A DNA stretch of 64,000 nt from Daucus carota subsp. sativus. Lineage: Eukaryota; Streptophyta; Magnoliopsida; Apiales; Apiaceae. The notes under the pieces were generated by a model. It did no database searches. It had not been told where the DNA came from and saw only the letters and a list, made by a program, of their open reading frames with translations. The first letter of the stretch is position 1; each line of letters starts with the position of its first letter. The DNA is taken from the NCBI RefSeq assembly GCF_001625215.2, contig NC_030384.2, positions 31,856,527 to 31,920,526 of the forward strand. Direction: 5' to 3'. This document shows, in pieces, positions 12,849-36,628 of the stretch. A program made the translations under genes and the position numbers.

Positions 12849-13425
<577 letters not shown>

Positions 13426-13449
13426 TATATATATATATATATATATATA
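13426..13449. repeat. (TA)n tract between two TIR elements
   Basis: Pure TA repeat separating the 413-bp element from the left end of the 12.25-kb element. It is probably split and duplicated target microsatellite. Confidence 0.9.
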
Positions 13450-13768
13450 GGGCGAGGTTCAAATTAGAACCAATATTATAATTAGAACTTAGGACCACTA
13501 TTAACCATTAGATTGTAGTGGAATAGATGGTTATGATTTAATATACTATTAATTAAAAAAACAATATACCTTTCATATACTTAAATGAAATACGTATAGT
13601 ATACTTGAGTATTTATTAATTAGATATTAGTTGCTAAAAATACATCAATTTATAACTGATCAAATTTTGCAAAATTAATAGTAATAAAACACTTTCCTCG
13701 ATAGAACAAAACTAAGCTACTACTCTCGATTTTCTCTCAGTTTCATAATACTACTGGTTTTACAAATT

Positions 13769-16536
13769 ATGGAGAATTTTGAACCCAGCATGGAGTCTAC
13801 TCATGTCGATTCAGGTACTACTACAAATTTACACTATATTGGTGTTGTTTCGTACAAGAATTTTGTCGACATATTTCCATGTGCTGCAACAGTACGTGTA
13901 CTGCATATGCTGAAATTATGATTAATTTTATGCACTTTCATACATGTAAGATCGTGATGTAAATTTTTTACTTTCAGGTGGGGCACATCATTCACCAGTT
14001 ATTGATGAACAATTCGCAAAGAATGGAAATATACTTGAAGAGCCAATCCATTTTGAAGCGTTAGAATATACGTCCCCTGGTGGTCGTGAGTATTTTACAC
14101 CCATATGCGATGAAAAGTATAAGCCGTATGTAGATAGGGCTTTTCCCACTATTGATGCTGCATATGATTTCTACCGAGAATATGGACGTTTATGTGGATT
14201 TGATGTTCGCAAGAGTTCTGCAAAACATGCTCCTGATGGTACAGTCATTCTCAAGTACATAGAATGTAGTTGGGCTGGTACGTATGACAAAAATAAGCAA
14301 ACAACATCTGAAGTTGTTGCTGAGAAGCCCATTAAACGTCGTAGGACAAGTTCACGTAGGTGTGATTGTAATGCTATGATCAAAGTAAAATATACCGGTC
14401 TCAGTGGTTATGTTGTATCATATTTCGTTGAGGATCACAATCACGCATTAGCTTCCGCCTCCGGTAAACAGTTCTTGAGATGTAGTAGGAAGTTGAATTT
14501 CTGTCATCAGAACTTGATTTCTGACTTTTCTCGGGCAAATATTGGTCCAGTTAGAACTTATAATATAATGAAAGAGATGGTTGGTTCGTATGAGAATGTA
14601 TGTGCTACATCCACAGATTTTAAAAATTTTAAGCGCGACATGAGGGCTCGTATCGGTCCACATGATGCAGACATGATACTTGACAAGTTTAGTGGGAAAT
14701 ATGTGACGTCAAAAAAAACCTTTTACTATGAGTATAAACAAGACAATGATGGTCACTTAACTGGTCTTTTTTGGGCTGATGCTATTGGTAAACGTAACTA
14801 TAGCATATTTGGAGATACTCTGTCCTTTGATCCAACCTATCGTACAAACAAGTAGGTGAAAATTTTGTTTAGTCATTTTTCTAGTTGTCAAAATTTATGT
14901 TCTTTGTGCATGTGTGCTGTAGTAGGACCCCATATACTCTATGTCATACACCATTGCCTAATCAGATTTGTATGTTTTTTTTCCAGATATTGTATGGTAT
15001 TTATTCCTTTTACAGGTGTTGATAATCATTGGAGCAATGTGACATTTGCTGCTGCACTGGTTGAGAAAGAAGATCATACCAACATTAAGTGGGCGTTGGA
15101 TGCTTTTACCAAATGCATGGATCATATTCCTCCATGCGTCATAACAGATCAATGCCTTGGAATAAAGAAGGCTGTTTCGCTGGTTTGGCCCGAAACCATA
15201 CATCGTTATTGTATGTGGCACATTATGAATAAATTGTCTAGCAAGGTAGTTTCATATATAAAATTTTGATTTTGATTCACTCAATAAAGATTGATTAGTG
15301 CACTGATATTTTCTAAATTTTCTCAGATTCGTCCATCCTTAGCTTCTGATAAAATTTTCATGTCTAAAATGAAGTCTTTAGTCTGGGCTGATCACTTATC
15401 AATTCAAGAATTTGAAGAAGGTTGGACGTCTGTTATTGATGAATACGATTTGGGTGATAATGACTGGCTTACTGATATGCATGTCATCCGCAAAGAATGG
15501 ATCCCTGCTTATTTTAATAATGTTGCAATGGCTGGCTTGCTTAGAACAACGTCACGTTCGGAGAGCTCAAACTTCTACTTTCAACATTTTCACAAGAGCG
15601 GGGATACTTTGCTTGAGTTCTTCTCTAAATATGAAAGTGCAATTGAGAAACAACGTCATTTATTTGAAGATAACAACCAGCTCTCAATATCCGTTCCAAT
15701 ACCTGCCACCGAGTTGAAGATTGAAAAAGATGCTGCAAAAATATATACACGTCAACTGTACTACCTAGTCAGGGAAGAAATAGAATCGGCGTGGTACCAT
15801 ACAAGCATTGATGAAGTCAGTCTTATTGAAGGTGTTAAACATTTTAAAATAAAAGATGCATTATTAAAGGGAAAATTGTTTGAGGTACGTTGTTTTTTTT
15901 AAGTCAGTTAGTTTATGTAATTTTTTTATAAAACATGATGATATAGAATTTTCTATATAATTTTAGGTTACTGTAAGACTTGCTGATCACGATGTGAATT
16001 GCGAGTGCAAATTCTATGTCCGGAGAGGTTACTTATGCAGACATGCGTTTGCAAGTTTGCATCAATGTGGTGTTTCCAAAATTCCACTAGCTTTCATTAA
16101 CACACGTTGGACAAAGAATGCCGAAAATCAACCCGCGATTGTGTCCAGTGCCAATTCTCAACATTGTGTTGACAGTGAAGAGGTGAAGTTATTAGTAAAA
16201 GAAAATTGGTTTGATTTCCAGACGTGCATGAGTATTGCTGGTTTTGATAAGAGCGCGGTATGTAAGATGCGCACACATATCCAGGCGATGAAAGTTGACA
16301 TGAAAGAATTAGTGACACATAAGGAAGCAACAATTGACAAGTTTGTCGGTCCACAACCTCATTCAGATGTTGTTGTACAGAATCCAAACACAAGTCGTAA
16401 CAAAGGATGTGGCAAGAGGATCAAGAGTGGCAAAGAACAAGCGATGAACAGTAACAATGACAACCGTCGGAAGTGCAGCATATGCGGACATATTGTTGGA
16501 CATAATGCTAGGACATGTCCACTCCGAAAGAAATAA
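13769..16536 (+). CDS. FAR1/FRS-type MULE transposase (intact)
   Basis: Five exons: 13769-13814, 13978-14851, 14987-15245, 15327-15884 and 15967-16536. All have GT-AG borders and close to 768 residues. Order: FAR1-type WRKY-GCM1-like zinc domain (roughly residues 70-160, with CSW, RRCDC and DHNH), MULE transposase domain, SWIM zinc finger (Cys591, Cys593, Cys603, His605), and a C-terminal zinc knuckle (Cys749, Cys752, His758, Cys763, with one extra residue compared with the usual CX2CX4HX4C). The putative DDE residues are all present: Asp300 (SFDPTYR), Asp361 (VITDQ) and Glu472 (SRSESS). FAR1/FHY3/FRS transcription factors descend from such transposases, so a host regulatory protein is the alternative. 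Its position just inside a TIR, 320 bp from the end, and convergent with an Ulp1 gene in the same TIR pair, favours a working or recently working transposase. Confidence 0.88.
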
Positions 16537-17199
16537 AGCATTATTGCCTGATTGTTAAGAAAAATGTGTTCTTTTCAAGTCTTTTACATAATTTAACTTC
16601 TAAAAGATATTTGTAGTTGTCATGGTTATTTCATTTATCGAATAAGTTTCTTGCAGCATATTATCTATTTTGCATTGCTGAAACTTTTTTAAAAAGGTGA
16701 AATGGTTGTGGAAGTTATGTTGGGATCCCTCAGTTAATGAAAAATATCAATTTTTCTAGTAGTATGGTTGTCAATATGTATCGAGCATAGTATATATACT
16801 ACATTACATTTGATACTGGTTGCTGATAGAGCTTTCCTGAGGATTGGTCATTAACTAGTTAAATTGCCAATAAAAATGGTTCAGAATATTGGAGTAAATA
16901 CTCTGTTTTGATCTATAATCTGTGCATATGCTACCGCTCATCAACTTCAGCGGTCTTAAATCGCCTAGTTGCATTGCTTCATTCCTTAACTTACGAATCA
17001 GTCATTTTATCAATGCGTATTTGTAATATTTTTGTCCTTCGACCTGAAACAAGGTTCAGCTCTGCTGTTTTCTGCACAATACTGCAGACAGATGATGTCA
17101 ATTCCCATCAGCGGAGAATTAGTGCATCACCCATGTTTAGTTAGTTTCTATAATGTGGTCAAAATAAAGATTTCAACTAAGTGATTTCTATAATGTGCA
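16537..17199. other. Internal transposon spacer
   Basis: DNA between the transposase stop and the first RPT6 exon fragment. An open frame at 16908-17144 has no recognisable domain. Presumably holds the transposase 3' UTR and RPT6 intron sequence. Confidence 0.45.
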
Positions 17200-19586
17200 T
17201 CAGACGTGTACTGGAAACACTTTATTGGCCAGGGCAGTGGCACATCATACTTATTGTACATTTATAAGGGTCTCTGGTTCTGAATTGGTCCAGAAATATA
17301 TTGGTGAAGGCTCTCGAATGGTCAGAGAACTTTTCTTTATGGCCAGGTCTGTTTTATGTACACTAATTAAGAGTCCAACTGGTGTAGACCATAGATTACA
17401 ATGAAGGGAATAGGTTCAGTGCTTAGTAAAAAAAATCCTCTGCTATCTGCTCTTAGATATGTTCAATGTGCATTTTTGTATCTGGCCGCATCATATAGTA
17501 AGTTCATGCTAAATTAATAGCACTGCAATCAAAGATCGATTCATCTGACATAAGATATTTATTAATTTTTTCCTTTAGTTTGCATATGATCCCAACTGGC
17601 AAGTGGTTGATGGTGATGAAAGCTATGAATTAGACCGCGATAATGAACAATTTTTAACTTGCTTTTTAAATATTCTTCCACCTTTTCATACTTGTCAAGT
17701 TGTCAGTGATGCAAGTTCTTTGCTTGAAGTTTTGTTTAACAGGGAGCATGCTCCATCTATTATATTTATGGATGAGATCGACAGTATCGGGTCTGCTCGA
17801 ATGGAATCTGATAGAGGCAACGGTGATAGTGAGGTGCAGCGTACAATGCTAGAGCAAAGTTGTTTGGCACAAGGGCTCCTGCAATTACAGAAAATATGCA
17901 CAGCGCTACAAGGAGGACGAGGATGAGATGGTAATGGCCCTCTAGCCCTCTATGTGTAGTCGAGTGAAAGAAGAATAGTAAGAACTCAGCACAAAATGCT
18001 GTGGCAGCGACAAAGCATAAAGCTCCATCTGGCAAGGGAAACAAGCTGAAATATGGAGAAAGGACCATCGATCAATTAGCTGAGAATTGAGCAGTGATCA
18101 ATTGATTTACCAAAAACTGAAATTTAATCCAAACTTCCTTCTAGGCAGCAGTGTTTTATCACTGTCAATGCAGATTGACCAGTAGCATATATGGCTCTTA
18201 TACTCAAACCTATATGACAATACAACATAGCTATTTGGTTGCAAACCTTAAATTCCCTGGGCTCTTTCACACAAAAGTATAAGAGCTCTGGCTTGTGAAT
18301 AGATAACAAAAGAACGTCCTAAAGATGATCGTTAAGATCTTTTTATATTTGGGTAGAAAGTTGGGAAATGTAAATACCTGTAGCTGTTTCTGGAATAGTG
18401 TTTAGGTCTATGCAGTGAACTGAATATATGTACATATATAGGACTTGTTCAAACACAAAATTTCTTAGCCTACAAACCATACACATATGCAGAATTCATT
18501 AACAACAATCCTTGAGCCCAAACAGAATTTACCAATTTTTTTGAAAATAAAAAAAATAAAAAATAAGCTTATATCAATGAATTGTAATTTTGATTGTTAT
18601 ATAAACATTGTATCTTAGTATTTATATCTTGATTGACCACAATTAATATATTATTTAAATATTTTGTTTCAGAACTTCTGGTGAATCCTATAATGTTGTT
18701 TCAGTATAACGCTTGTCGATGTTGATGCATTCTGAAGGTTTGTAGTGTGACATGCCCCGATGTATATATACTTGTTCTACTCCGAGCTATCTAGATGTTA
18801 CAAGATTCTGCAGGGTCTTTTAAGTTTAATTATCTTGCCAAACTAAACATCCGTGTAAAAAAATTAGATACCCATGTAACAATGTGAGGTAAATACAGCA
18901 GATACTAAGAGAAACACTGACCTGGTTTTCTCAGACAGCAACATGACAACACCATAGACGAAGAACATGAGAAGCATTCCACCATGTTCAAAATCATTCA
19001 TGTGAGTTGGGTTCAATACTCCATCAACAAAGTAATTGAAGTGAGGTGAATATAAAAGCTCTATACACATATCAAGAAAAGCCCCGGCAGATATAACATA
19101 CAACTCCAAATATTTCAGTTTTCCATTGTAACCAGGAACCGGATTCCAAACTCTGACCTGAAAAAACTTGGGATTCAACACCTGCCTCACCAAAGAGCAC
19201 CATACGCGCCATACACCAATCAACAGGAATAATGTCCCCGGTACAGCATGCCCCATAAAAGACCCCATCTCTGCGATTCAATGGTAATCCAATATCAAGA
19301 CAGGAGCTGTATTTATTCCCTCTAGTTCTACACACAAGTTTGATCACAACCAATGATGCTAAGCTACGTAATATTTCACCCTCAAACTCTACAACACATT
19401 TCGATTCTTAAAGCCGGCTTTTCTCTATTTATTTTCTTCTAGTTTTTACACAAGTTTGATCACAGCCAATGATACCAAGCTACGTAATTTCTGATCCTCA
19501 AAGAACCAACCACAATAACTTACTTTTCTGATCCACAATAGCTTGTCAACCAATTGGATCGGTTCGAAGCATCAAGCAAGATCAAG
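17200..19586 (+). pseudogene. RPT6: Captured fragment of 26S proteasome ATPase gene RPT6, split by an insertion
   Basis: Three exon pieces match the AAA+ core of RPT6 (regulatory subunit 8). Piece one, 17200-17346, reads [10 protein letters not shown] through [19 protein letters not shown]. Piece two, 17742-17854, reads [20 protein letters not shown] to VQRTMLE. Piece three, about 19542-19586, reads LVNQLDRFEASSKIK. Introns survive (donor after MAR, acceptor before EHAPS), so the copy came from genomic DNA, not from mRNA. The Walker A GTGKT has become CTGNT, losing the ATP-binding lysine; Walker B (IIFMDEID) is kept. Everything before Walker A and after FEASSKIK is missing. An inverted DUF716 gene piece separates pieces two and three. 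Not a functional ATPase. An open frame upstream of piece two ([18 protein letters not shown], from about 17580) is unrecognised. Confidence 0.85.
17856..19268 (-). pseudogene. Captured 5' part of a DUF716/TMEM45-type membrane protein gene
   Basis: Two exons on the minus strand. 18922-19268 starts with ATG and reads MGSFMGHAVPGTLFLLIGVW through YLELYVISAGAFLDMCIELL and HMNDFEHGGMLLMFF. Exon 17856-18045 continues in frame (SLFPLPDGALCFVAATAFCA through [20 protein letters not shown]). The 876-bp intron is kept with GT-AG. The protein is a hydrophobic multi-pass type, as in plant DUF716 proteins of roughly 290 residues. Only about the first 175-180 are present, and the frame runs into the RPT6 exon where the two joined. 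Upstream sequence (19269-19540) may include its original promoter or 5' UTR. Function of the family is poorly known. Confidence 0.8.
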
Positions 19587-20033
19587 GAAATTTCTTTGCA
19601 CATAAAAACTGCAGTACATACTGCTAAAGTACAGTGCTGCATAGGTACACTAGTACAAATTCAGCCAAAGAGGGAAAAAATACCGCAAACAATAGGAAAC
19701 CCAGATGCTGTTATTCTGTTACAGCATCTGATGTGTAATCTATCTATATATTGTTCCTTTCCCAAACTTTGCATAAGACTGAGCCTTCCACATTATAAAT
19801 AAGAAAAAACAGCTACAGATAGATTAAATAAATACGTCATGCCTTGAATATCTCGCAAAATGATATAAATTCACAATGATAAAGTTTTAAACCAATGCTG
19901 AAACAATATTAAATATGTTACATAAAGGTTCTGGATGTGAAAATTGAATTAATAGCTCACTACTACAGCACCAAATTAATTATTAGTACCCCACACTTAT
20001 AACGCCAACAAGAAGGCAACTTGTTAACAACTT

Positions 20034-23000
20034 TTATCTTGCTCTCATAACATTCAGACTTTTGCCAACAGCTTTCATAATTTCTTCCCTTTTTTCATTC
20101 AGCGGGCTAGTCAGCATCTGATGACAATATATTTTTCGAAGCTTCTCCATCTGATTTTTCCCGACCTGTAAAAGGATTTTAAGCTTTCAGATGTTTATAC
20201 ATCAATGGTATGCACGTATCAGTAATGGTCAACACGACATTGTCAGAATGAAGCTTATCAATATAGAGTCAACTAACCTTCTCATTTTGTAGCGTACCAG
20301 CCCAAGGAATACGACGCCCACCCATGTAAGTTTCCATATGCCGCATCACAAAAATACCACAATCAACAACATTATCATTCGTTTGCCACTCCATTTCTAT
20401 GAAGTTAGGTTCTAAAGCAGACACTTTTTCCCAAGTAAGCACATTTTCTTGCTTCAGCATCCGGACGAACAACTTATGCTATATACATGTGTTATTAACA
20501 ACGAGATAAACAATACACTTGAATACCACTTTATATAATTTTAATCCTATTAAATTAGCCGAGTAATATTTTACTAGATTCTTACCAGAGTTGAAGGTGC
20601 ATCTCCATATACCGCACTAGTATCTTTGTAGTGTTTGTTGTTATCTATGATGTCCCACGATGGATGCTTTATGTTATAGCAAATAAGGTAGTGATGCACC
20701 CCTTGATGTATTGGAAAGAAAAACTGCAAATAAATGGTTCCAAAAAAGTAATAGGTATAGTCCCTTAAATGAAGTACATGCCTCTTCTATGTGTTATGTA
20801 TTACAGTGAACTTTTAAGTGCAACTCAAAAGTAGAACTTACCATATCAAAGTCAGCGATTACATATGTTTTCTGATGCAAATAATTTATAGTGCACCAAC
20901 ACATGTCCACATGTTCCATAAAGTTATCATAGCGGTGCTCGAAACTTTTTCCATTGTTTGCGAGGGCAACCAACTACAAGCAAATGGACACAAATTACAT
21001 ACCATCATACAAAATTATTAATTAAGCCTAACCTAACACAATTATAATTTTTTTTAAAACCTAACACATGTCATAATATTCACAATAAATTAGAATTTAT
21101 CCTGCTGCAGTACACAATCATAATATTCACACCTAACAAATTTGTAGGATAGCTTGAACCTAAACTTAAGAAAGTACCGTTGTTTCAACAGTCAGAAAGC
21201 ACCGAAAAGGTGAATTTGGCCCTCTTAGTCTCTCTCCATAATTCCGCAGATATGACCAGCAATCAATAACCGTTCCCTCCACCCATGAGTTAAACTTTAG
21301 AGACTGAAATTGTGCTTTAGTACACATTCTGTCGATCCACACAAAAAGGTATTCACTATCACAAAAAACAAGGCAACATTAATACAGATTTATAATCAAC
21401 AAATTATGTATATGTTACTTTTGTGACATTTATAATCTAAAAGGCATACTCTTTTCGCTTTCTGTTACTGAAAAGCCACTGCCAAACTGCTTCTTGCTCG
21501 GGGTTAATTTGCCTCCGTCGTAGGTCATTCACTATTCTAATAACATATGGGGATTTAGCATTATCAGATAGATGCACCTGACGTCGAGGTCTATCCAACT
21601 TTGCAATATTGTCATCTGTTCTTGCAACTTCTATCGCTTCCCTCCCTCCATCTGAATCTTTAGCACACTCCTTAGCAATATTCAAGACATTTATATCTTC
21701 ATTAATTTCATGAGTTTCTGTTTGTGTAAGCCCCAAAGAGAAGCTAGGAGTCTCATCATTTAAATCTCTCGCGGCAGAAATTTTACTCTTGCTAGCTGAG
21801 TATTCTACAAGAGCTCTATCAATATCTGCAATATCTTGAGTTGACAAAGGCTCAAGTGAGTCCAAATCATGTTGTGACACATTAATGTTCTGTGAAGTCG
21901 GATAATCCCCCATACACCCAATTTTCTCTTTGTAGCAACTGAATAAATCGCTCAATTTTTGCTTAATCATTGCATTTCTCTCACTGCTTGGAAACATTGT
22001 ACTGGCCTTTTCTTGTGATGTCATGAAGTCCTCAAAGATTCTACTTAGAACCGTAATCTTTTTTTCCAAAATATCAAACACTACCTGTTTGTAGAAAGAT
22101 TTAATTTTTTAGATCAACAACCCATGCTGAGATAATTTAAACAATCACTGCATCTACATACCTTCTCATCCGAAAAATCATGACAGTCAGCAGAAGCTTC
22201 ACTATCACTTACATAATCCTGAAAAAAAAAAAAAGTAGAACAAACTTCAGTTAAAATACCAATATACTGCACTAGTACACTAGTATACTGCAGCAGTATA
22301 CTAACCCATGCAGGATATACAGAGGTTTTTTACATTATATATCACAAAATTTAAATACAGTATGCTGTAGTCATAATCAATAATAAATCTTGACCAAATT
22401 AACATATCTAACGTGCTGTAGAAATCTGCACAAAGTCTATTGTCAGGTAATTATTTCTGAAGTTTAAACATAATCTTTCTACTAGATTAACAATAAATCT
22501 GTGCTAGATTAAGAACTTTAATATACAGCTAGGAAGAGGATACCGTGCCCGATTTCTCCTTACTCATCTAAGGGGTCAGGCAAGCATGGTAAGAAATAGA
22601 GAACTAATAATAATGTTCTGTAATAGTATATGCCCTAATGTCAGAACAAGCCTAGTCAATATTAAATCATATATACTTCTATTTTCCTAATGACACTATG
22701 GATGTTTAATATTATGCAGCCATTAACAAAAACCTTCTAACACCACTAAAGGTTTCCAAAAAATAGATAATAAAATAACTTATACCTTTTCTTCATTTTG
22801 GACTTCCGGTGCAGATTTCTCATTATCATTTTCCTAATAGGGTACCATTGTTAGCAAGACATCAGTAGCAAATAGGAAACAAATTAAACTTCCACAATGA
22901 ACTTACGATATCATTGTTGCATTCATCAGCAGCCCATTCAAGAATTTCACCAATGCCAAAATTGTCATCCAAAATCTCATTATCCTCTCGCTCACGCAAA

Positions 23001-25278
23001 AGTGCATCAGACCAAGCAAGATAAGCAGGTATCTCTCTAACGACTTCCTTGGTCGTATTGTTCTTTACCCTATCTACATATAAATACTATATATAACGAC
23101 AATATCAGTAATCAGCTTAATAAATAACCCATATTTAGATCACCTTCTTTATTAAAATGCAAAACTTACAATCAAAAATGCCAGTGGTCCTGCGAAATAT
23201 CTTTTTTCTGGGTCAGCTGCCCAAAATGCGTGTGTAAACTTAAGCCTTGCTATTAAAAGTTCGCACCATTTAAACTCATAACACTTGTCCAAATTTCCAT
23301 TGAAGCTCAGAATATCAGTCTTAAGAAAACAATTTTGGTTGGATTCTATCAGAAAATTTGTCATAAACACTAAAAAATTGAGCTTGAATTCCATGTTCAC
23401 TGTCTTTTCCCTCTTCAGCAATTTAGAAACCATTGTTGCTGTAACATGACTCTTCGTTGTTGGTACAAATTGTTCTGCCCAGATAGTCAAATTGTCCGCT
23501 CCTCCATCTAACTCAATCTTTTTTCTACCAATGGGAAGACCTAGAACCTTGTTCACTACAAACTCAGAAATCTCAATTGAACCATTTTTCAAAACTAAGG
23601 AAGATGTGCTCTTATCGAATGACTCAACGATATCATAACCTAATCTGTGTGGATATCTTCCCATTTTAAAATTTAAAAGTTCACCAAATCCGGTCTTATT
23701 AACCCACTCCTTTTGATTCTGATTGAATGCTGCAATAGTATCTGAGAAAATTTCTGGACGGAATTTCTTTTGTATGTACCTTTTATATACTCTCTTTGGT
23801 TTAGCATTCTTTTTGGGACTCAAATTCCGAAATTTCTTCTTTACAGGAGAATGAATAGCCTTGCCCTTCTTTCCAGCAGAATGATTAGCCTTGCCCTTCT
23901 TTTCGGCAGGATGATTAGCCTTATCCTGCAATAGCCAACAATCTCTATTACAAAATCTAACAACTGCATGTTCATTGGGAAAATGTAATATTACACTGTC
24001 GGAAAGTATGTGTGCTGCAAAAACACGAGACTAAGGCCACAAATTGCTTCTTTAATTGCTAACTGTATTTTATCTACAGAGATATCATGTACAATGACAT
24101 CATGTACTACGATCATATATCACAACTTAATTACTGCATACCATTATATTTATGTATACAACTATATTAGGAATACAAAGCAATTACAAGTAATACCTCT
24201 GCATTCATTTTCCTTCGTTTTGTTCCCCTGACAGAGTTGCTAGAATCTATTTGTTCTGCAGTCTTACTACGCTTCTCCTCTCGTTGCTTATTAAGCCCAA
24301 GTTTCCTTTCCACTTTATTATTAGTTAGCGTCCCTGCCGGTTTTGGCTTAGAACCTGCAGCACTTGATAGTTCTACTTCCACCGCATATTTCTTTTTCCT
24401 TACTGTACTCAACTTCGGACTTGTTTCAGACCACTTCTGTAGACTCATTACATGTCCTGCTCAAGCACACGTTTATCAAAGTTATAATAATACACAATTT
24501 TAATCAATAATACCGTTTAGAGTTAGATATAAACTTTGGAAATACTTTCACGGGGATGTGGTAATACTATCACAGCATCTTCTATATAATCTATTTACAT
24601 AAACTTTAAGCTACGCCTATATGCTGCAGCCTTACACTAAAAATTAAGAGGTTTATGCCCAGACAATGACTAAAAAATGCTTATGTACTAAACACATGCG
24701 ACATCATTAATTCCATACCTTTTTCTCTTAAGGCCGCTGGACTTGTAACAAAATCATCATCATCATTGCCCGACTGCATACAGGTTTTTCGCCTAATTCC
24801 TATAGAACTGAAACCTCCTTGTGGCCCCAATTTTTTCCTCTTCCCTAGTGTTGTCAATTTTAGATTCTTTTCAGGAGCCTTTTTTGAGGTCATTGCACGT
24901 CCTGCTTAAGTACAAAATCAAAACAACTAGCTATCAAGTTTAAGTTAAAAAAATAAAATTCTTGCACATACTGCTGAAGTACATACTGCAGAAGCACGAC
25001 AAGAAAAAATCCCATGAATTGAACATTAGCAATTTGCATCGCATCTTATCGTTTCAACAAATTATAAAACTCTATACTTTAGGTACCCATACATAAAAAA
25101 TTGGTTGTGCAGCAGTCTAGATTAAACGTACTTAATCCAAGTTGTTAACAATGACTAAAGCATATACATGCAAAAAAGATGTCTCAATTAACCATTAACC
25201 ATAATTTAAACACCTACATTGAAAGATAGAGAACTTACTTCTTCCCGCACTAGTATTAATCTCAGACACTGCAACCAT
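20034..25278 (-). CDS. Ulp1-like C48 cysteine protease of the transposon (intact, 13 exons)
   Basis: Thirteen minus-strand exons: 25239-25278, 24719-24901, 24197-24456, 23170-23925, 22907-23086, 22786-22833, 22162-22218, 21450-22084, 21178-21355, 20842-20973, 20586-20723, 20278-20478 and 20034-20165. Every border is GT-AG and the frame closes to 979 residues. The first 190 residues or so are very basic (repeats of KKGKANHS, KRKK), likely nuclear or DNA/RNA-binding. Next comes a domain typical of plant transposon Ulp1 proteins (around GFGELLNFKMGRYPHRLGYD), then an acidic linker. The C-terminal C48 peptidase carries the expected His834 (HHYLIC), Asp850 (IIDNN), Gln901 (EWQ) and Cys909 (VVDCG). 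Ulp1/SENP enzymes process or remove SUMO; the substrate of transposon versions is unknown. It converges with the transposase and ends 3.5 kb from it. The start is the first ATG of exon 1 and is less certain than the rest. Confidence 0.85.
24197..24901 (-). repeat. Tandemly duplicated exon in the Ulp1-like gene
   Basis: Exons 2 (24719-24901) and 3 (24197-24456) start alike, including the splice acceptor: AGCAG|GAC-TG--AATGA, then CTGAAA and TTGA. The proteins have parallel starts (MTSKKAPEKNLKLTTLGKRK and MSLQKWSETSPKLSTVRKKK). Identity fades after about 80 bp. The phase is compatible, so both can be spliced in. Confidence 0.6.
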
Positions 25279-25699
25279 TGCTCGAGGAGTCAAAGCCACG
25301 ATGCCCTTATAGCACAATATCTGCACTCGTACTGTACAGCCTTTCTCCGTTTAAATAATCAAGGTTTTGATTACGAGGAATCAGGTTTTGAATGTGGCAA
25401 AATCAATCATGATCACAAACTATTTCTTATCGAGCGATTATGTACCAAAAGGGAGCGAGCTAGAGTGTACACAAAAGATACTGATTTGCACTTTTCCTGG
25501 AGTTTTCTTTTGTTGATGTAATAAAATCCCAAAATTGTAGTTATACACCTACAGTATCTAAATCACATACCGTATAGGGAATTAAAATATACATGTATAA
25601 TACATCACTTAGATCTCAGCCTTTAATTTTTTTTCAATCTGATGGCTAATATTAAGGTTCTAAAGTTCTAATTATAATAGGTTCTATGCGGAACCTGAC

Positions 25700-25701
<2 letters not shown>

Positions 25702-25754
<53 letters not shown>
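25702..25754. repeat. (TA)n microsatellite at the right end of the 12.25-kb element
   Basis: About 53 bp of TA units between the ends of two related TIR elements. Confidence 0.95.
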
Positions 25755-25758
<4 letters not shown>

Positions 25759-26680
25759 TGGGTTCCACATAGAACCAATTAAAGCACAAAAAGCACGAGA
25801 TCTCCGATCGATCCGTCTCATCTCTCTTTCGAAACGTCGCCGTTCGACATCGAAGTGTCGTTGCCCCTATATCTCCCCATCTTTGCTCTCAAATCTTTCA
25901 ATATTTAACATATTTAATTCGTAATTATACGCTTGTGTTTGATTTCTATAATTGATTGTGCTAGTCATTATGAGATGATGGACGAATGGGTTGTAACGGG
26001 GAGGTCAAGTTGGAGCGATCCAGGGGGAAGAAGGTGGGGGAGAAGTGGGTGCTGAATATTGAAAAGAGAAGGTACCGAAGGTTATGATATGTGTATGTAA
26101 TTGGTTGCTTTTAGATTATTTCATGATTACTTCTGTGCTATTAGTTTTAATATTGGTCTTGCGGGTACTCATTTTTGCCACTTGCAACTTATTATGTAAT
26201 TAAATGTAAATTTCAAGTTTTCAACCGATTTTTTCAAAATTGTATTTGTGATTGCATATATAATTGCTAGAAGTTGCAGATATGGTTGCATATGTAACCT
26301 CCGTATTTTTACAAATACTTTTTGGAACATAGTATTTTTGGAATTTGTTTGAACAAGTGACAGTATTTTCGTAAAAATTCTTTTAGATTTGGGTATTTAT
26401 GAAAAAAGCACTATCACATATTAATATTAGACTAGTATTCAAAGATGGATAATAAAAATATTTATTATTTATACAAATGATTTCTAATATATAATTTTTC
26501 AATAGAAAATATAATCAGTCGACTAATATAATCTAATAGAATTTCAATTCATCAATATTAAAATATTAATAAAATGATGTTAAATTTAAATTATATATAT
26601 TATATTTAAAATTATATAATCATCGGGGCTTTGCACTTTGCAGGGTTCAAGACACGTATATATAACACCACACCACATCA
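25755..26680. mobile_element. Left end of a further TIR element of the same family; remainder unclear
   Basis: The first 25 bp or so (GGGTTGGGTTCC, then ACATAGAACC) match the outer end of the 12.25-kb element closely and again abut (TA)n. The following DNA includes a GC-richer stretch (about 25795-25890), then AT-rich sequence with no gene. I found no partner end, so this may be a truncated copy. Only the left boundary is supported. Confidence 0.5.
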
Positions 26681-27736
26681 GGTTTTATATCAAACTGCCA
26701 TCCGTTACGTCAAAATATCTCACTTTACCCACCCATCTCACCGGAGGCTCATTTAAGCCACTATAAACCAAATATATATTATTTTACCCACATCACTATT
26801 CATACCTCTTTACTTAATCAATTATCAAAAATTAACCGTTTCTTTTTATTACAAAATCACTTCGAGTACTTTCATACTTGTCTCTAATATTTATCAAAAT
26901 AATTTGAGGATTTATAAAGGAACATAGGTAGGGTGCTCACACACACACACACACACACACACATATAGCTATATATTTTTTTGACTACATAGCTATGTTG
27001 CTCTAGAAATTCCCAAATTATTTTGATAAACAATATAGACAACTATGAAAGTACTCAAAATGATTTTGTAGTAAAAGCGATATTGAATAAACCATTTACA
27101 GCGTTTATTAAATAAGAAACGGTGTTAAAAAGGGCATTAACATCGTTTAATATATAAAAGGCGGTGTTGAATACATGATTTACATCAGTCTTTAAATAAA
27201 AATCGATGTTAAAAAGCTCATTCACATCGGTCCTGTTTTCCGAATGATGTCTAATTCAGTTTTTACATCAATTTTTTTTAGAAAAACGATGCATATGGTT
27301 TATATTGCCCTGTGATGTATGTGTTGAAAGGGTGTCAAATCACGTAATAAATCATTATTCATGTTGTAACCAAGCAGTATATTGGTAATATCTCAGCAAA
27401 AGACATCAAATTTTTTGAGAAAACTGATGTCTGAACATGCTATTTACATCGGGTTAAAACTGATGTCTAAATATCATACATATAACATCGCACGCGAAGA
27501 TATCGGTCGGATTTTTAACAGGCATCGGCGTTTGACCGGTGTCTAATGCATTATTTGTAATATTGGTGTAGTAAAAAGTTAAACGATTAATTTTTAATAA
27601 ATGATTAAGTAAAGAGGTATGAATAGTGATGTGGGTAAAATGATATGAATTTGGTTTATAGTGACTTAAATGAGTCGTCGATGAGATAAGTAGGTCAAGT
27701 GAAATGACGTAACGATGGCCAGTTTGATATAAAACC
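26681..27736. mobile_element. Foldback element with long inverted arms
   Basis: The left arm (about 26681-26932) is the inverse of two separated blocks on the right (26993-27076 and 27577-27736). Both outer ends start GGTTTTATATCAAACT, and both arms share CACATCACTATTCATACCTC. The hinge holds (CA)n at about 26939-26962. The right arm is interrupted by a 490-bp insertion. No coding sequence. Long TIRs suggest a MULE or foldback family; the class is inference. Confidence 0.75.
27077..27566. mobile_element. 490-bp element nested in the foldback arm
   Basis: Flanked by the identical 10-mer TGTAGTAAAA (27067-27076 and 27567-27576). Removing the insert plus one copy restores the alignment to the intact left arm. 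The interior carries many degenerate copies of a CATCGGT/ACATCGTTT-type subterminal repeat in both senses. A 9-10-bp duplication fits Mutator-like insertion, although the subterminal repeats recall CACTA elements. Non-coding. Confidence 0.7.
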
Positions 27737-28101: not shown

Positions 28102-29675
28102 TTACAACCGTGCTTTCTTTGGGACGGCTCTAAGTGGTACAAATTTTCTCACAGTGATCCCAATTCGATCATCCATGTCCATTGTCTCTGGAGACTCATA
28201 ATGCCAGTCGAACTCATGAAGCAATGAACCCAGGATCAGATGCAGCATTTTGTGAGCCAAGGGAACGCCTGCACACATTCTTCTTCCTGCCCCAAAGGGG
28301 ATCAACTCGTGATGCTGACCTTTGTAATCAATTTTTGAGCCCAAGAATCTCTCGGGCTCGAAAGACAAAGGGTCATTCCAGCATTGCGGATCCCTCCCTA
28401 TTGCCCAAGCATTTACGAAGACTTGTGTGTTCTTGGGAATGTGGTACCCCATGAAGACGGTATCTTTCATGGCCTTCCTTGGAACGAGAAGCGGAATTGG
28501 AGGATGCAGACGCAGTGTTTCCTTAACCACTGCCTGCAAATATTGCAAGTTATCAATGTCACTTTCCTCGAATCTCCTTTCCTTTCCAATGACATTTGCT
28601 AGCTCGGCTTTAACCTTGGTCATTTTTTCAGGGTTCCTTAGAAGCTCAGTGAGTGCCCATTCTGTCGTGCTGCTCGTCGTCTCTGAACCAGCTAGAAATA
28701 TTTCCTGCAATAATTTAAATCAGTATGACATTTCACAACTTCATCATTAACTTTTTTAGTTGTGCATATATTTCGTACCAGTATAAATATGTTTATGTCC
28801 CTTTCCTGTAGCCTGGGTGGTTCGTCTTTTCCTTTGCCCCGAAACTCAATTAGAACATCCAAAAAATCAGTTGTTCTGTTTCCTCCAGTTTGTTGTTCCT
28901 TCTCTTGGGCTCTCTCTTTGAAGAACTCTGCAGCTATGGCTAATGCTTTTCCAATGTCACGGTCCATGTTTCTTCTCAAACCTTGAAGATCAAACCGTCT
29001 AAGACAAGGAAAAACATCCGAAATATTTGCATGTCCACTCCACTCCATTAGCCCCATCATCGCATCAAAAAACTCAGAGCCGGCCTTGGACTGGGGATCC
29101 ACCAAGTCCCGCGACAGCATGAGATTACCAAGCATGTTAAACGATCCCAGGAACACAAACTTCGCCACTTCAATCTCTCTCCAAGCTTCATTCCCTATCC
29201 AATTCATCAAATTGCCAATACACCTCTGCCTGATCGGCTCCGTCTCATTCAGCCTCTTGCTCACCAACATCTCCACAGTGCAAACCCGCCTCAACACACG
29301 CCAGTACGACCCATACGGGGCAAGAGCCAGAGAGCCCTTGTGATAATCATGTGATTTCATCGTATGAGTGATCGTTCTTTCTGCGAAAGTGTGATCATGG
29401 TTCTTGAACAACTCAGTTGCCGCCGCGGCATTAAGAATCACCATAGAGTTCACAGTGCCAAACCTTAGCCAAACAACCGGACCATATTGTTTAGCCAGCC
29501 CAGCTAAAGTCCTGTGCGGCATTTTTCCAAGGTCGAACATATTGCCGAACAAAGGCCACCCCCGTGGACCCGGTGGCAATCTGGCGGCCCCGGACTTCCG
29601 CCGATAATAATGGAGAGCCAAGGCAGGTAGTAGAATGACAATGAACCAAAGATAAAAACCATAATTCATTTCCAT
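28102..29675 (-). CDS. Cytochrome P450, CYP76A-like
   Basis: Two exons, 28779-29675 and 28102-28704, joined by a short GT-AG intron at the usual A-type P450 position, giving 499 residues (normal length). N-terminal membrane anchor (about residues 5-22), the proline-rich hinge LPPGPRGWPLFGN, I-helix AGSETTSS (304 on), ExxR at Glu361-Arg364, PERF, and haem loop PFGAGRRMCAG with Cys443 as the thiolate ligand. The protein is closest to CYP76A members as I remember them. CYP76 enzymes oxidise monoterpenols, iridoids and other small terpenes or phenolics in the ER; the substrate here cannot be told. All P450 signature residues are present. A related P450 lies 5.3 kb upstream on the same strand. Confidence 0.93.
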
Positions 29676-35000: not shown

Positions 35001-36628
35001 TTACGAAGATATATATGGAACCGGTATTGCTTTCACTGGAACTGCTTTTCTGAGGGTGATTCCCATTCGTTCACTCATGTCCATGTCTCCTGCTTTGATC
35101 CCATCCTCTAAAATCCAATCAAATGCAAGCAAGACAGAGCCCAAAGCCAAGGGGAGAAGCCGAGAGGCTAGTGGAATTGCTGGACACATTCTCCGCCCTG
35201 ACCCAAACGGTAAAAACTCGAAATTTTGTCCTTTATAATCTACCTGCTGCATTTTGGGATCAAGGAACCTCTCGGGTTTGAATTCCAGAGGATCAATCCA
35301 CGTATTCGGGTCACGTCCGATCGCCCATACGTTTACAAGCACTTGTGCTTCTTTTGCGATGTGATAGCCTAGCATGTTGCAAGAGTCCATGGCCTTGTGG
35401 GGAACAAGAAATGGGAGTGGAGGGTGGAGCCTCAGAGTCTCTTTGATTACTGCTTGTAGGTATGGAAGTTTTTCGAAATCTCTCTCAGTAGGATTCGTGT
35501 TAGGAGGATGGACAGTAAGAGCTCTCAGCTCTTTTTGGACCTTTTCTAGTATTGTTGGATTGTGAAGAAGCTCGGCCATTGCCCACTCCAACGTGCTTGT
35601 CGTCGTGTCGGTTCCAGCTGTGAACATTTCCTGGACGAAAAATTAATCGTTTTATGATTTTGTACCCAATTTCGTGCCTGAAGCACTTTCATGTATATAT
35701 TAGTTGGTAAGAAACTTACAAACACAATAACATTGATTGTGGTTGGGGAGAATTTAAGAGGCCCTTCAACACCATCACCATTATAGTCCAAGAGAACATC
35801 CAAGAAGTCGTTTTTCTTTTCTACAAAAACCTCTTTATTTTCATTGAGCCGATCTTTCAAAAATCCTCCAGCAATTTCAAACGCTTGATTCACATGATAC
35901 TGCGTTTTCCTCCTAATCCCCTGAGGATCAAGCCGTCTCAACACAGGGAAAAAATCAGCCACATTAGGCTTTCCCGCAAACTCCATCACTTTACCCGCGT
36001 GGTAGTAGAATTGCTCCCCTGTCTCCGATTTCGGGCCCAAAAGATCCTTCGAAAACAGAAAGTTCCCCACCAAGTTGAAAGTCATCAAGAAGAAAAACCT
36101 CCGAACATCCACAGCCTTCGTGCCCGCGCCTCCCGCCTCTTCAATAAACCGCACCATGTGGTCAATACATCTTCTGCGAACATGATGCATAGCGTCAAGG
36201 CTAGTGGACGAGAAGAACTCCTTGCTGCAGAGCCGTCTGAGCATGCGCCAGTGGGGGCCATATTGAGCCGTGATGAGGGAGCCTTCATTTCCGAAATCTC
36301 CTTTCATGGACTCGTATATTTTTCTCCCAGCCAGAACCACGTCGTGGTGCTTGAACATCTCACGAGCCGCCTCGTTTGATGAAATAACAACTGTGTTCAT
36401 GGACCCGAGGCTTAGGGTCATCACGGGACCGTGTTTGCGAGCCAATTTGGCAAATGACTCGTGCGGTGCGAAACCGTAGCCCAATTGAAGGAGGTTTCCG
36501 ACTAGGGGCCAGCGCCTCGGTCCCGGAGGTGACGCTTTCGCGGAAACGTGGTGGAGTTTGAGGACAGCAGCCCATAATGACCATAGTACCATTACCACTA
36601 ATGCTAGAACTAGCAGCTCAACGTCCAT
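35001..36628 (-). CDS. Cytochrome P450, CYP76-type (second, divergent copy)
   Basis: Exons 35720-36628 and 35001-35630 join in frame to 512 residues. N-terminal anchor, hinge PPGPRRWPLVGN, I-helix AGTDTTTS (308 on), ExxR Glu367-Arg370, PERF, and haem loop PFGSGRRMCPAIP with Cys452. The glycine that normally follows Cys-x in FxxGxRxCxG is alanine here; some CYP76-like sequences share this, so it need not disable the enzyme. It has the same intron position as the CYP76A-like gene, but the two differ widely, so this is an old pair and not a fresh duplicate. CYP76-level assignment is fair; the subfamily and substrate are unknown. It acts at the ER with a P450 reductase. Confidence 0.9.

Follow-up and report, generated by a model that had tools for sequence, protein, structure and literature searches.

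The window, a 64,000-nt stretch of the carrot genome (Daucus carota subsp. sativus, GCF_001625215.2, NC_030384.2:31,856,527-31,920,526, forward strand), holds at positions 13450-25701 a single 12.25-kb transposon with terminal inverted repeats (TIRs), lying between (TA)12 and (TA)26. We consider it very probable that this is a FAR1/Jittery-type two-gene transposon of the Mutator superfamily, in which the second gene was inherited and the pieces of host DNA were acquired later. The structural reading of an earlier note on this DNA, namely one TIR transposon with two open genes, trapped host DNA and a TA target, is supported by the results below.

Ends, genes and captured DNA of the element

The element opens with GGGCGAGGTTC at 13450, directly after the (TA)12 tract (13426-13449), and closes with CCTGACCC at 25701, directly before a tract of 26 TA units (25702-25753). 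Pairwise alignment of the left TIR (13450-13515, forward strand) with the right TIR (25635-25701, reverse strand) gives 54 identities over 66/67 bases, and its score of 36 was reached by none of 5,000 random 80-mers from the window, whose maximum was 18. The coordinates given earlier for the TA-bordered inverted ends are confirmed, and TIRs are a feature of the Mutator superfamily.

Exon models of both genes were assembled by hand from the genomic sequence alone, with GT...AG introns. The transposase gene (13769-16536, forward strand) encodes 768 aa in five exons (13769-13814, 13978-14851, 14987-15245, 15327-15884 and 15967-16536), and a Pfam scan finds the MULE (1.6e-24) and FAR1 (2.2e-15) domains. 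Together with the MULE match, the candidate DDE residues D300, D361 and E472, picked by eye according to the spacing in JITA, mark a DDE transposase of the kind found in the Mutator superfamily. The FAR1 domain is N-terminal, as in Jittery/FAR1-type proteins, while the C-terminal SWIM-like (CECKFYVRRGYLCRH at residue 591) and zinc-knuckle-like motifs were recognized by eye only.

The second gene (20034-25278, reverse strand) encodes 979 aa in 13 exons (25278-25239, 24901-24719, 24456-24197, 23925-23170, 23086-22907, 22833-22786, 22218-22162, 22084-21450, 21355-21178, 20973-20842, 20723-20586, 20478-20278 and 20165-20034). Its Pfam Peptidase_C48 score of 21.5 bits passes the cut-off of 20.7, and the His-Asp-Gln-Cys motifs of a C48 (Ulp1) peptidase were seen by eye as VHHYLI (832), WDIIDN (846), EWQTND (899) and VDCGIF (907); a PDB sequence search with the protease region gave no match. 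The DUF1985-like exon scores 20.4 bits, below the Pfam cut-off of 35.1. Both open frames described earlier, with catalytic residues in place, were thereby reassembled.

The DNA between the two genes is a nested mosaic from three donor loci, 89-98% identical to them. Piece A of RPT6, a 26S proteasome ATPase gene (17208-17354, forward strand, 97% to C4:33414387-33414533), is followed by two blocks from a second donor (17354-17721, forward strand, 92-96% to C4:42320968-42321394) and by RPT6 piece B (17719-17855, forward strand, 95% to C4:33413730-33413866). A third donor supplied 1.68 kb (17854-19529, 97-98% to C1:51083564-51085229), after which comes RPT6 piece C (19540-19614, forward strand, 89% to its donor). 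In the donor, piece C takes up where piece B stops; the C1 piece thus sits nested within RPT6. Inside the C1 piece is a coding stretch (18864-19277, reverse strand) that has no Pfam match and that we take to be TMEM45-like. The trapped host exons of the earlier note are therefore pieces of RPT6 and of two further loci. These pieces would have arrived late and in nested steps from the three loci; gap repair with template switching would be the simplest route. With its donors identified, the mosaic is a worked case of host-DNA uptake by MULEs. Pack-MULEs carry host gene pieces within MULE ends; the carrot element resembles them in this respect, but retains its own transposase.

Relatives with the same ends and a two-gene sister family

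The left end (13450-13560) has at least 41 matches in the genome and the right end (25592-25701) has 16. Among the end-match stretches examined, 25 further elements of 0.45-2.2 kb each have one left-type and one right-type end, and one more, L012, has left-type ends at both sides; with the window copy, these 26 make up the 27 elements counted. The C9 duplicates enter this count as two neighbouring elements, L009 and L012. It leaves out six left-end and six right-end match places, and L024 (two right ends) and L029, L030 and L036 (no usable pair) also stand outside it. The search with both ends, which the earlier note had named as its own check, hence did not yield the refuting outcome, and the idea of ends derived from two different elements was rejected.

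At least five TA units are present at both sides in 12 of the 27 elements and at one side or more in 16, against a baseline of 0.36% of window positions in TA tracts. Of the 15 elements that are not TA-flanked on both sides, six have an exact 10-bp target site duplication (TSD) at the predicted ends and three more match at 9 of 10 bases; none of 210 mismatched flank pairs was exact, the best matching at 9. This evidence comes from the relatives, the window copy's own TSD being unreadable within TA. Mutator-superfamily elements make target duplications of 8-11 bp; the exact 10-bp duplications of the relatives therefore place the element in that superfamily.

Joint mobility of the two genes, which the earlier note presented as inference, is well supported for a sister family, C9:30.08, and not for the window copy. 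The sister family has three two-gene copies on C9, C2 and C1, about 11.8, 12.0 and 11.6 kb long, with gene spacings of 7,275, 7,275 and 6,836, respectively. The C9 and C2 copies are identical at 811 of 813 and 854 of 855 exon bases; all six ends of the three copies lie in (TA)9 or longer, and the sequence outside differs. For the window copy no full-length sister was found, which counts against our explanation. In the genome search its right end alone exceeds 85% over its length, shorter partial matches reaching 90%. Relatives at C9:28.2-29.6 Mb share 95-97% DNA identity with the left 3.3 kb of the window element. A common flank was found in nine of the ten read, so these relatives represent, for the most part, duplication of a single insertion; their interpretation as independent transpositions was rejected. 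Neither Ulp1 nor a matching right end was found in the stretches of them that were examined.

Recurrent pairing of the second gene with FAR1-type transposases

With the window excluded, 150 transposase matches were merged by hand into at least 55 loci (best 58 of 1,146 candidates), and 57 second-gene matches into at least 43 (best 47 of 912 candidates). Among the matches listed, nine of the 43 second-gene loci have one of the 55 FAR1-transposase loci no more than 15 kb away, and all nine pairs are convergent; the chance expectation is a mean of 0.157, with a maximum of 3 in 2,000 random trials. Relative to the 150 best MuDR-type (PF03108) matches, a single one of the 43 loci is close. Against our explanation stand the non-independence of the nine pairs, three of which belong to a single young family and two of which have a transposase in common, and the 28 of 43 second-gene loci that have no FAR1 transposase within 60 kb among the matches listed.

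Distances in the two genes are correlated over seven loci (r=0.88, 5 of 5,040 permutations), and also after removal of the same-strand family (r=0.95, 2 of 720 permutations). These seven loci exclude C8_33.25 and recent duplicates; a first Mantel value (11 loci, r=0.64, 1/20,000) had included the duplicates and C8_33.25 with its six transposase residues, and was set aside. In four pairs dS is similar for transposase and second gene (0.030/0.037, 0.63/0.87, 0.100/0.087 and 0/0), and the second-gene dN/dS is 0.16-0.22 in two pairs. Less favourable to our explanation are a transposase dN/dS of 0.82 in one pair, the saturation of a fifth pair, and the two gene trees, which place the junction of the window family differently with support of 0.82-0.87. 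The transposase dN/dS against degenerate copies (0.43-0.62) is uninformative.

The second-gene relatives were matched via residues 142-469, mainly the DUF1985-like exon, over which the closest relative in the genome has 49% identity (best 47 of 912 candidates); no copy besides the window's exceeds this value among the matches listed. A weak DUF1985 match is present in all nine members scanned (E up to 1, best 5.5e-4; C2_19.08 and C9_30.08 excluded), three of which match PMD too. The protease part was sought beside six loci, and similarity was found at five. The His, Asp and Cys motifs are kept in the four loci read far enough and Gln in three of them. Two details again count against our explanation: the C9:30.08 family has Arg in place of the catalytic Gln seen in others, and no protease part was found in the 4.2 kb beside the C5:12.53 exon.

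Given the recurrent convergent pairing, the correlated divergence and the multi-copy two-gene sister family, the Ulp1 gene looks inherited rather than freshly captured. The pairing suggests a working partnership of the two genes instead of chance capture, and it goes beyond the published reports that we found. Together with the young three-copy family, the convergent pairs of correlated divergence make an inherited second gene directly testable.

Role of the second gene and comparison with published elements

In the mechanism that we favour, the FAR1-domain transposase would bind the ends, excise the element by DDE chemistry and reinsert it, as biochemistry elsewhere in the superfamily suggests; the relatives with the same ends show that insertion leaves 10-bp target duplications, with a strong preference for (TA)n microsatellites. 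The convergent second gene, with its DUF1985-like N-terminal region and C48 Ulp1-type protease, is very probably an old inherited part that most likely aids escape from silencing or regulates transposition, like VANC of VANDAL MULEs, and the protease may strip SUMO from chromatin or from a transposase partner. A putative VANC-like anti-silencing role is our best guess. VANDAL elements are, to our knowledge, not of the FAR1 type. According to the accessible parts of PMC13317346 and PMC5735166, KAONASHI and VANC of VANDAL MULEs are MULE second genes with DUF1985, and with Ulp1 in the KAONASHI type; in contrast, VANDAL elements are non-TIR, and the carrot DUF1985 match is below the Pfam cut-off. 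A bolder reading, which we hold less likely than not, is that the FAR1-type MULEs of carrot are an old two-gene lineage in which DUF1985-Ulp1 descended along with the transposase and may act as a family-specific anti-silencing deSUMOylase, of an origin independent of or shared with VANDAL/KAONASHI, in elements that shelter in TA.

A second gene that serves mainly target choice or transposition, as a regulator or DNA-binding partner, and not anti-silencing, is conceivable, although we think it rather unlikely. TA flanks accompany the second gene in two families (those of the window and C9:30.08), and mudrB of MuDR has a similar convergent second-gene layout. However, elements with these ends insert outside TA too, and AutoMuTAnT of Medicago, which has a single ORF, is found in TA repeats as well (PMC4486113, accessible part), so the choice of TA need not depend on a second gene.

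That the Ulp1 gene is an ordinary host gene, captured repeatedly and independently by MULEs and without a role in the element, seems to us improbable. In some grapevine Jittery-like families a ULP coding sequence lies downstream of the transposase, and because the ULP-bearing families are not monophyletic, repeated independent transduplication or frequent loss was proposed (PMC2528002, accessible part). Repeated capture also agrees with the uptake of host DNA by the carrot element and with the 28 second-gene loci away from FAR1 transposases among the matches listed. Against it are the nine convergent pairs out of nine, the correlated distances, the similar dS in four pairs and the low second-gene dN/dS in two; furthermore, the true captures are 89-98% identical to their donors, versus 49% for the nearest relative of the second gene among the matches listed. 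Domestication of both genes as single-copy host genes, between ends of two different elements, is hardly credible: domesticated FAR1-type genes exist (PMC2528002, accessible part), and among the matches listed there is no close copy of the second gene or of this exact right end, but 25 other elements have both end types inverted, both genes lie inside the ends, and the copies nearest to the transposase have decayed, carrying stops and deletions.

AutoMuTAnT/MuTAnT share with the carrot element a five-exon Jittery-like transposase, (TA)n targeting, small non-autonomous relatives and G-rich tips; AutoMuTAnT differs in having 4.9 kb, a single ORF and a 9-nt TSD, as opposed to 12.25 kb, two genes and 10 bp, and the accessible part of PMC4486113 mentions neither an Ulp1 gene nor captured host DNA. 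By eye, the carrot ends also differ from the published MuTAnT mask GGGGTTTGCTAGAACA (PMC4486113), and with two genes the element falls outside MuTAnT. Jitvine-1 (11.9 kb) and Jitvine-2 (14.4 kb) of grapevine are likewise large Jittery-like MULEs, whose TIR and TSD lengths and TA targeting are not given in the accessible part of PMC2528002. Plant Jittery is tabulated with one ORF (PMC6446971, accessible part), unlike the two genes found here; one ORF was not taken as defining, since ULP-bearing Jittery-like elements have been published (PMC2528002).

The earlier note had also considered the combination of traits undescribed. Each trait alone is already published, in what is accessible of the sources: Jittery-like MULEs in TA microsatellites (MuTAnT, Medicago; PMC4486113), ULP-bearing Jittery-like MULEs in grapevine and, as cited there, in melon (PMC2528002), and TA-targeted MULE arrays (SaTar; PMC5907723). 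One element joining them all was not found in the open-licence PMC literature, surveyed mostly by listings, and to that extent the claim stands.

SaTar elements of guayule and rice are MULEs joined end to end via TA microsatellites without nesting; they differ in comprising 15 small non-autonomous guayule families, with autonomous-type relatives described as defective, and an Ulp1 gene is unmentioned in the accessible part of PMC5907723. The window holds a SaTar-like TA array: three unrelated elements stand in a row, joined by TA and not nested, the third being known by one end. This end (AGGGTTGGGTTCCACATAGAACC, 25754-25900) abuts the TA tract, and the other was not found within the window. 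The TA-flanked neighbour at 13012-13425, with TIRs GGGCATTGCTC.../...GAGTGCAACCC, is 414 bp long, which leaves no room for a transposase coding region. Its family numbers 52 near full-length copies including the window's, hand-picked among the 68 matches listed, and contains 12 pairs that are adjacent by distance alone, 4-200 bp apart.

Structure and setting of the two-gene element

The 12.25-kb element occupies window positions 13450-25701 and carries a FAR1/MULE transposase gene (13769-16536, plus strand) and a DUF1985-like/Ulp1-type second gene (25278-20034, minus strand), which are convergently oriented. The gene models proposed in the earlier note were reproduced: the transposase has 768 residues in 5 exons and the Ulp1-type protein 979 residues in 13, both hand models having GT...AG introns and no stops. 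In Pfam, the transposase matches MULE and FAR1, while the second gene matches Peptidase_C48 marginally over the cut-off and DUF1985 below it. The candidate catalytic triad of the transposase, D300/D361/E472, is spaced nearly as in JITA, the transposase of Jittery, for which D337, D399 and E509 are given in PMC9569675. We conclude that this is very likely a FAR1/Jittery-type Mutator element of two genes, the second being old and inherited with a probable role in silencing escape or regulation. Two points slightly temper this confidence: the DUF1985-like exon is the basis of the pairing statistics, and one of six loci lacks a visible protease.

The window lies at C4:31,856,527-31,920,526 of a 441-Mb host genome, and its genes are plant-type. 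The element directly abuts (TA)12 at 13426-13449 and (TA)26 at 25702-25753, and its inverted ends align over 66 and 67 bp with 54 identities, a score equalled by none of 5,000 random 80-mers; the TA-bordered inverted ends described earlier are thus borne out. TA tracts of at least 12 units occur in only three places in the 64-kb window, the third being 12879-13011 (one interruption), and each of the three is flanked, on one side or both, by a GGG.../...CCC element end. Since each long tract borders an element end, three TA-joined elements stand in a row, end to end: a 414-bp element (13012-13425), the 12.25-kb element, and a third from 25754 on, of which the first end is seen.

Near full-length copies of the 414-bp family number 52 among the genome matches listed, with 12 neighbouring pairs spaced 4-200 bp apart (e.g. 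C6:20,628,991-20,630,359); by these pairs, end-to-end arrays recur across the host genome. Close to a CA tract, window 26844-27076 holds an 87-bp inverted repeat (arms 85% complementary, 59-bp spacer), a putative fold-back or MITE-like feature. Two cytochrome P450 matches, each adjoined by a long ORF, lie on the minus strand at 28102-28719 and 35001-35642.

Genomic copies and joint mobility

The genome search with both ends that the earlier note proposed yielded 25 further elements, in the stretches fetched, that pair the left and right end types, and one with the left type at both sides; these are 452-2,248 bp long. The 111-bp left end has at least 41 genome matches (the best 40 of 161 candidates being scored) and the right end 16. 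With the window's element included, 12 of 27 have at least 5 TA units at both sides and 16 of 27 at one side or more, against a background of 0.36% of window positions. Among the 15 elements without TA on both sides, six have an exact 10-bp match outside both ends, as do 0 of 210 mismatched pairings; these flank duplications place the family in the Mutator superfamily. Evidently, the family prefers TA and occasionally lands elsewhere.

The closest transposase relatives, at C9:28.18-29.56 Mb, are 95-97% identical over the left 3.3 kb, and neither a Ulp1 gene nor a matching right end was found in the stretches fetched. Independent transpositions are rejected as their main origin, since all but one of the 10 flanks read are shared; they are mainly one duplicated insertion. 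Within C9:28.18-28.32 Mb, half of a single inserted element is present at least 7 times, in either orientation, mostly at intervals of 14-33 kb and with one flank in common, which constitutes a local segmental amplification.

A sister family, named for its locus at C9:30.08 Mb, is 43-44% identical to the window element in the transposase and 34% in the second gene. Measured by their TIRs, its copies on C9, C2 and C1 span ~11.8, 12.0 and 11.6 kb. The family was read at exons and ends (for the C1 copy, exons from search hits only). Between C9 and C2, 2 of 813 exon bases differ in the transposase and 1 of 855 in the second gene; over 120 bp, the C2 and C1 tips are 98-100% identical to those of C9. 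Each of the six ends is embedded in at least nine TA units, beyond which the sequences differ. Near-identical two-gene copies with TA at every end hence argue that recent transposition into TA repeats has carried both genes in elements like the 12.25-kb one, this sister family being the well-supported case. The two-gene family at C5:21,384,900-21,400,928 carries inverted repeats that are at least 2.2 kb long (98.4% identity) and spans at least 16 kb, its outer ends lying beyond the stretch read; at C5:12.53 Mb, 257-bp inverted repeats are located beyond the exons matched in the two genes.

Pairing and probable co-descent of the two genes

Relatives of the second gene were matched via its DUF1985-like exon. 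With the window excluded, 9 of 43 such loci have one of the 55 listed FAR1-transposase loci less than 15 kb away, all convergent, versus a mean of 0.157 and a maximum of 3 in 2,000 random placements; the nine are not independent, as three represent one young family and two share a single transposase. Two further loci are convergent with a FAR1 transposase at 17 and 32 kb. Another four (C8:9.64-9.68, C6:12.66-12.70, C1:8.25-8.31 and C7:27.75-27.77 Mb) lie 19-53 kb downstream of one on the same strand; two of the four were compared, and they are apparently one family, possibly of giant MULEs or nested insertions. For 28 of the 43, the matches listed include no FAR1 transposase within 60 kb. When the 150 best MuDR-type matches are used instead, 1 of the 43 loci falls within 15 kb.

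The protein distances of one gene correlate with those of the other across a small sample of 7 loci (r=0.88, 5 of 5,040 permutations), without the same-strand family (r=0.95, 2 of 720) and in a third subset (r=0.79, 6 of 720). The gene trees, with moderate support, disagree on the placing of the window family. Silent divergence is alike in four pairs (transposase/second gene 0.030/0.037, 0.63/0.87, 0.100/0.087 and 0/0) and saturated in a fifth. For the second gene, two pairs have a dN/dS of 0.16-0.22 and one recent pair 0.53; transposase values are 0.15, 0.21 and 0.82. The window's captured pieces are 89-98% identical to their donors, whereas no relative found of the second gene exceeds 49% identity to it; on all of these data together, the second gene looks inherited.

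Likely function, precedents and captured DNA

As expected from its superfamily, the FAR1-MULE transposase would carry out transposition. In each of the 9 members scanned, the N-terminal exon of the second gene resembles DUF1985, with a best E of 5.5e-4 and the window exon under the curated cut-off; the plant mobile domain is also matched in 3 of 9. VANC proteins are depicted with a DUF1985 domain (PMC5735166), and VANC genes with Ulp1 (KAONASHI) act on their own families, according to a review (PMC13317346). By analogy, anti-silencing may be the main role, a tentative assignment.

Of six second-gene loci beside which the protease part was sought, C5:21.39, C3:51.19 and C4:26.45 retain it with His, Asp, Gln and Cys motifs. 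The young multi-copy family at C9:30.08 has His, Asp and Cys, with Arg replacing Gln ahead of the catalytic Cys, and C8:33.25 has His and Asp to the limit of the stretch read. At C5:12.53 the DUF1985-like exon is present and the protease part was not found in the next 4.2 kb.

The supposition that the element was undescribed holds only for the combination, which was not found in one element in the portions of open-licence PMC literature consulted; Jittery-like MULEs targeting TA (PMC4486113), ULP within Jittery-like MULEs (PMC2528002) and TA arrays (PMC5907723) are each in print. In a survey table, plant Jittery has one ORF (PMC6446971), unlike the two genes here.

The trapped host DNA is likewise present, although from three donor loci rather than the two host genes first claimed. 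The DNA between the two genes is a nested mosaic: three RPT6 pieces (97%, 95% and 89%) derive from C4:33.41 Mb, a piece between the first and second from C4:42.32 Mb (92-96%), and a 1.68-kb piece separating the second from the third from C1:51.08 Mb (97-98%). This nesting indicates uptake in successive steps, for which gap repair with template switching would be the probable route.
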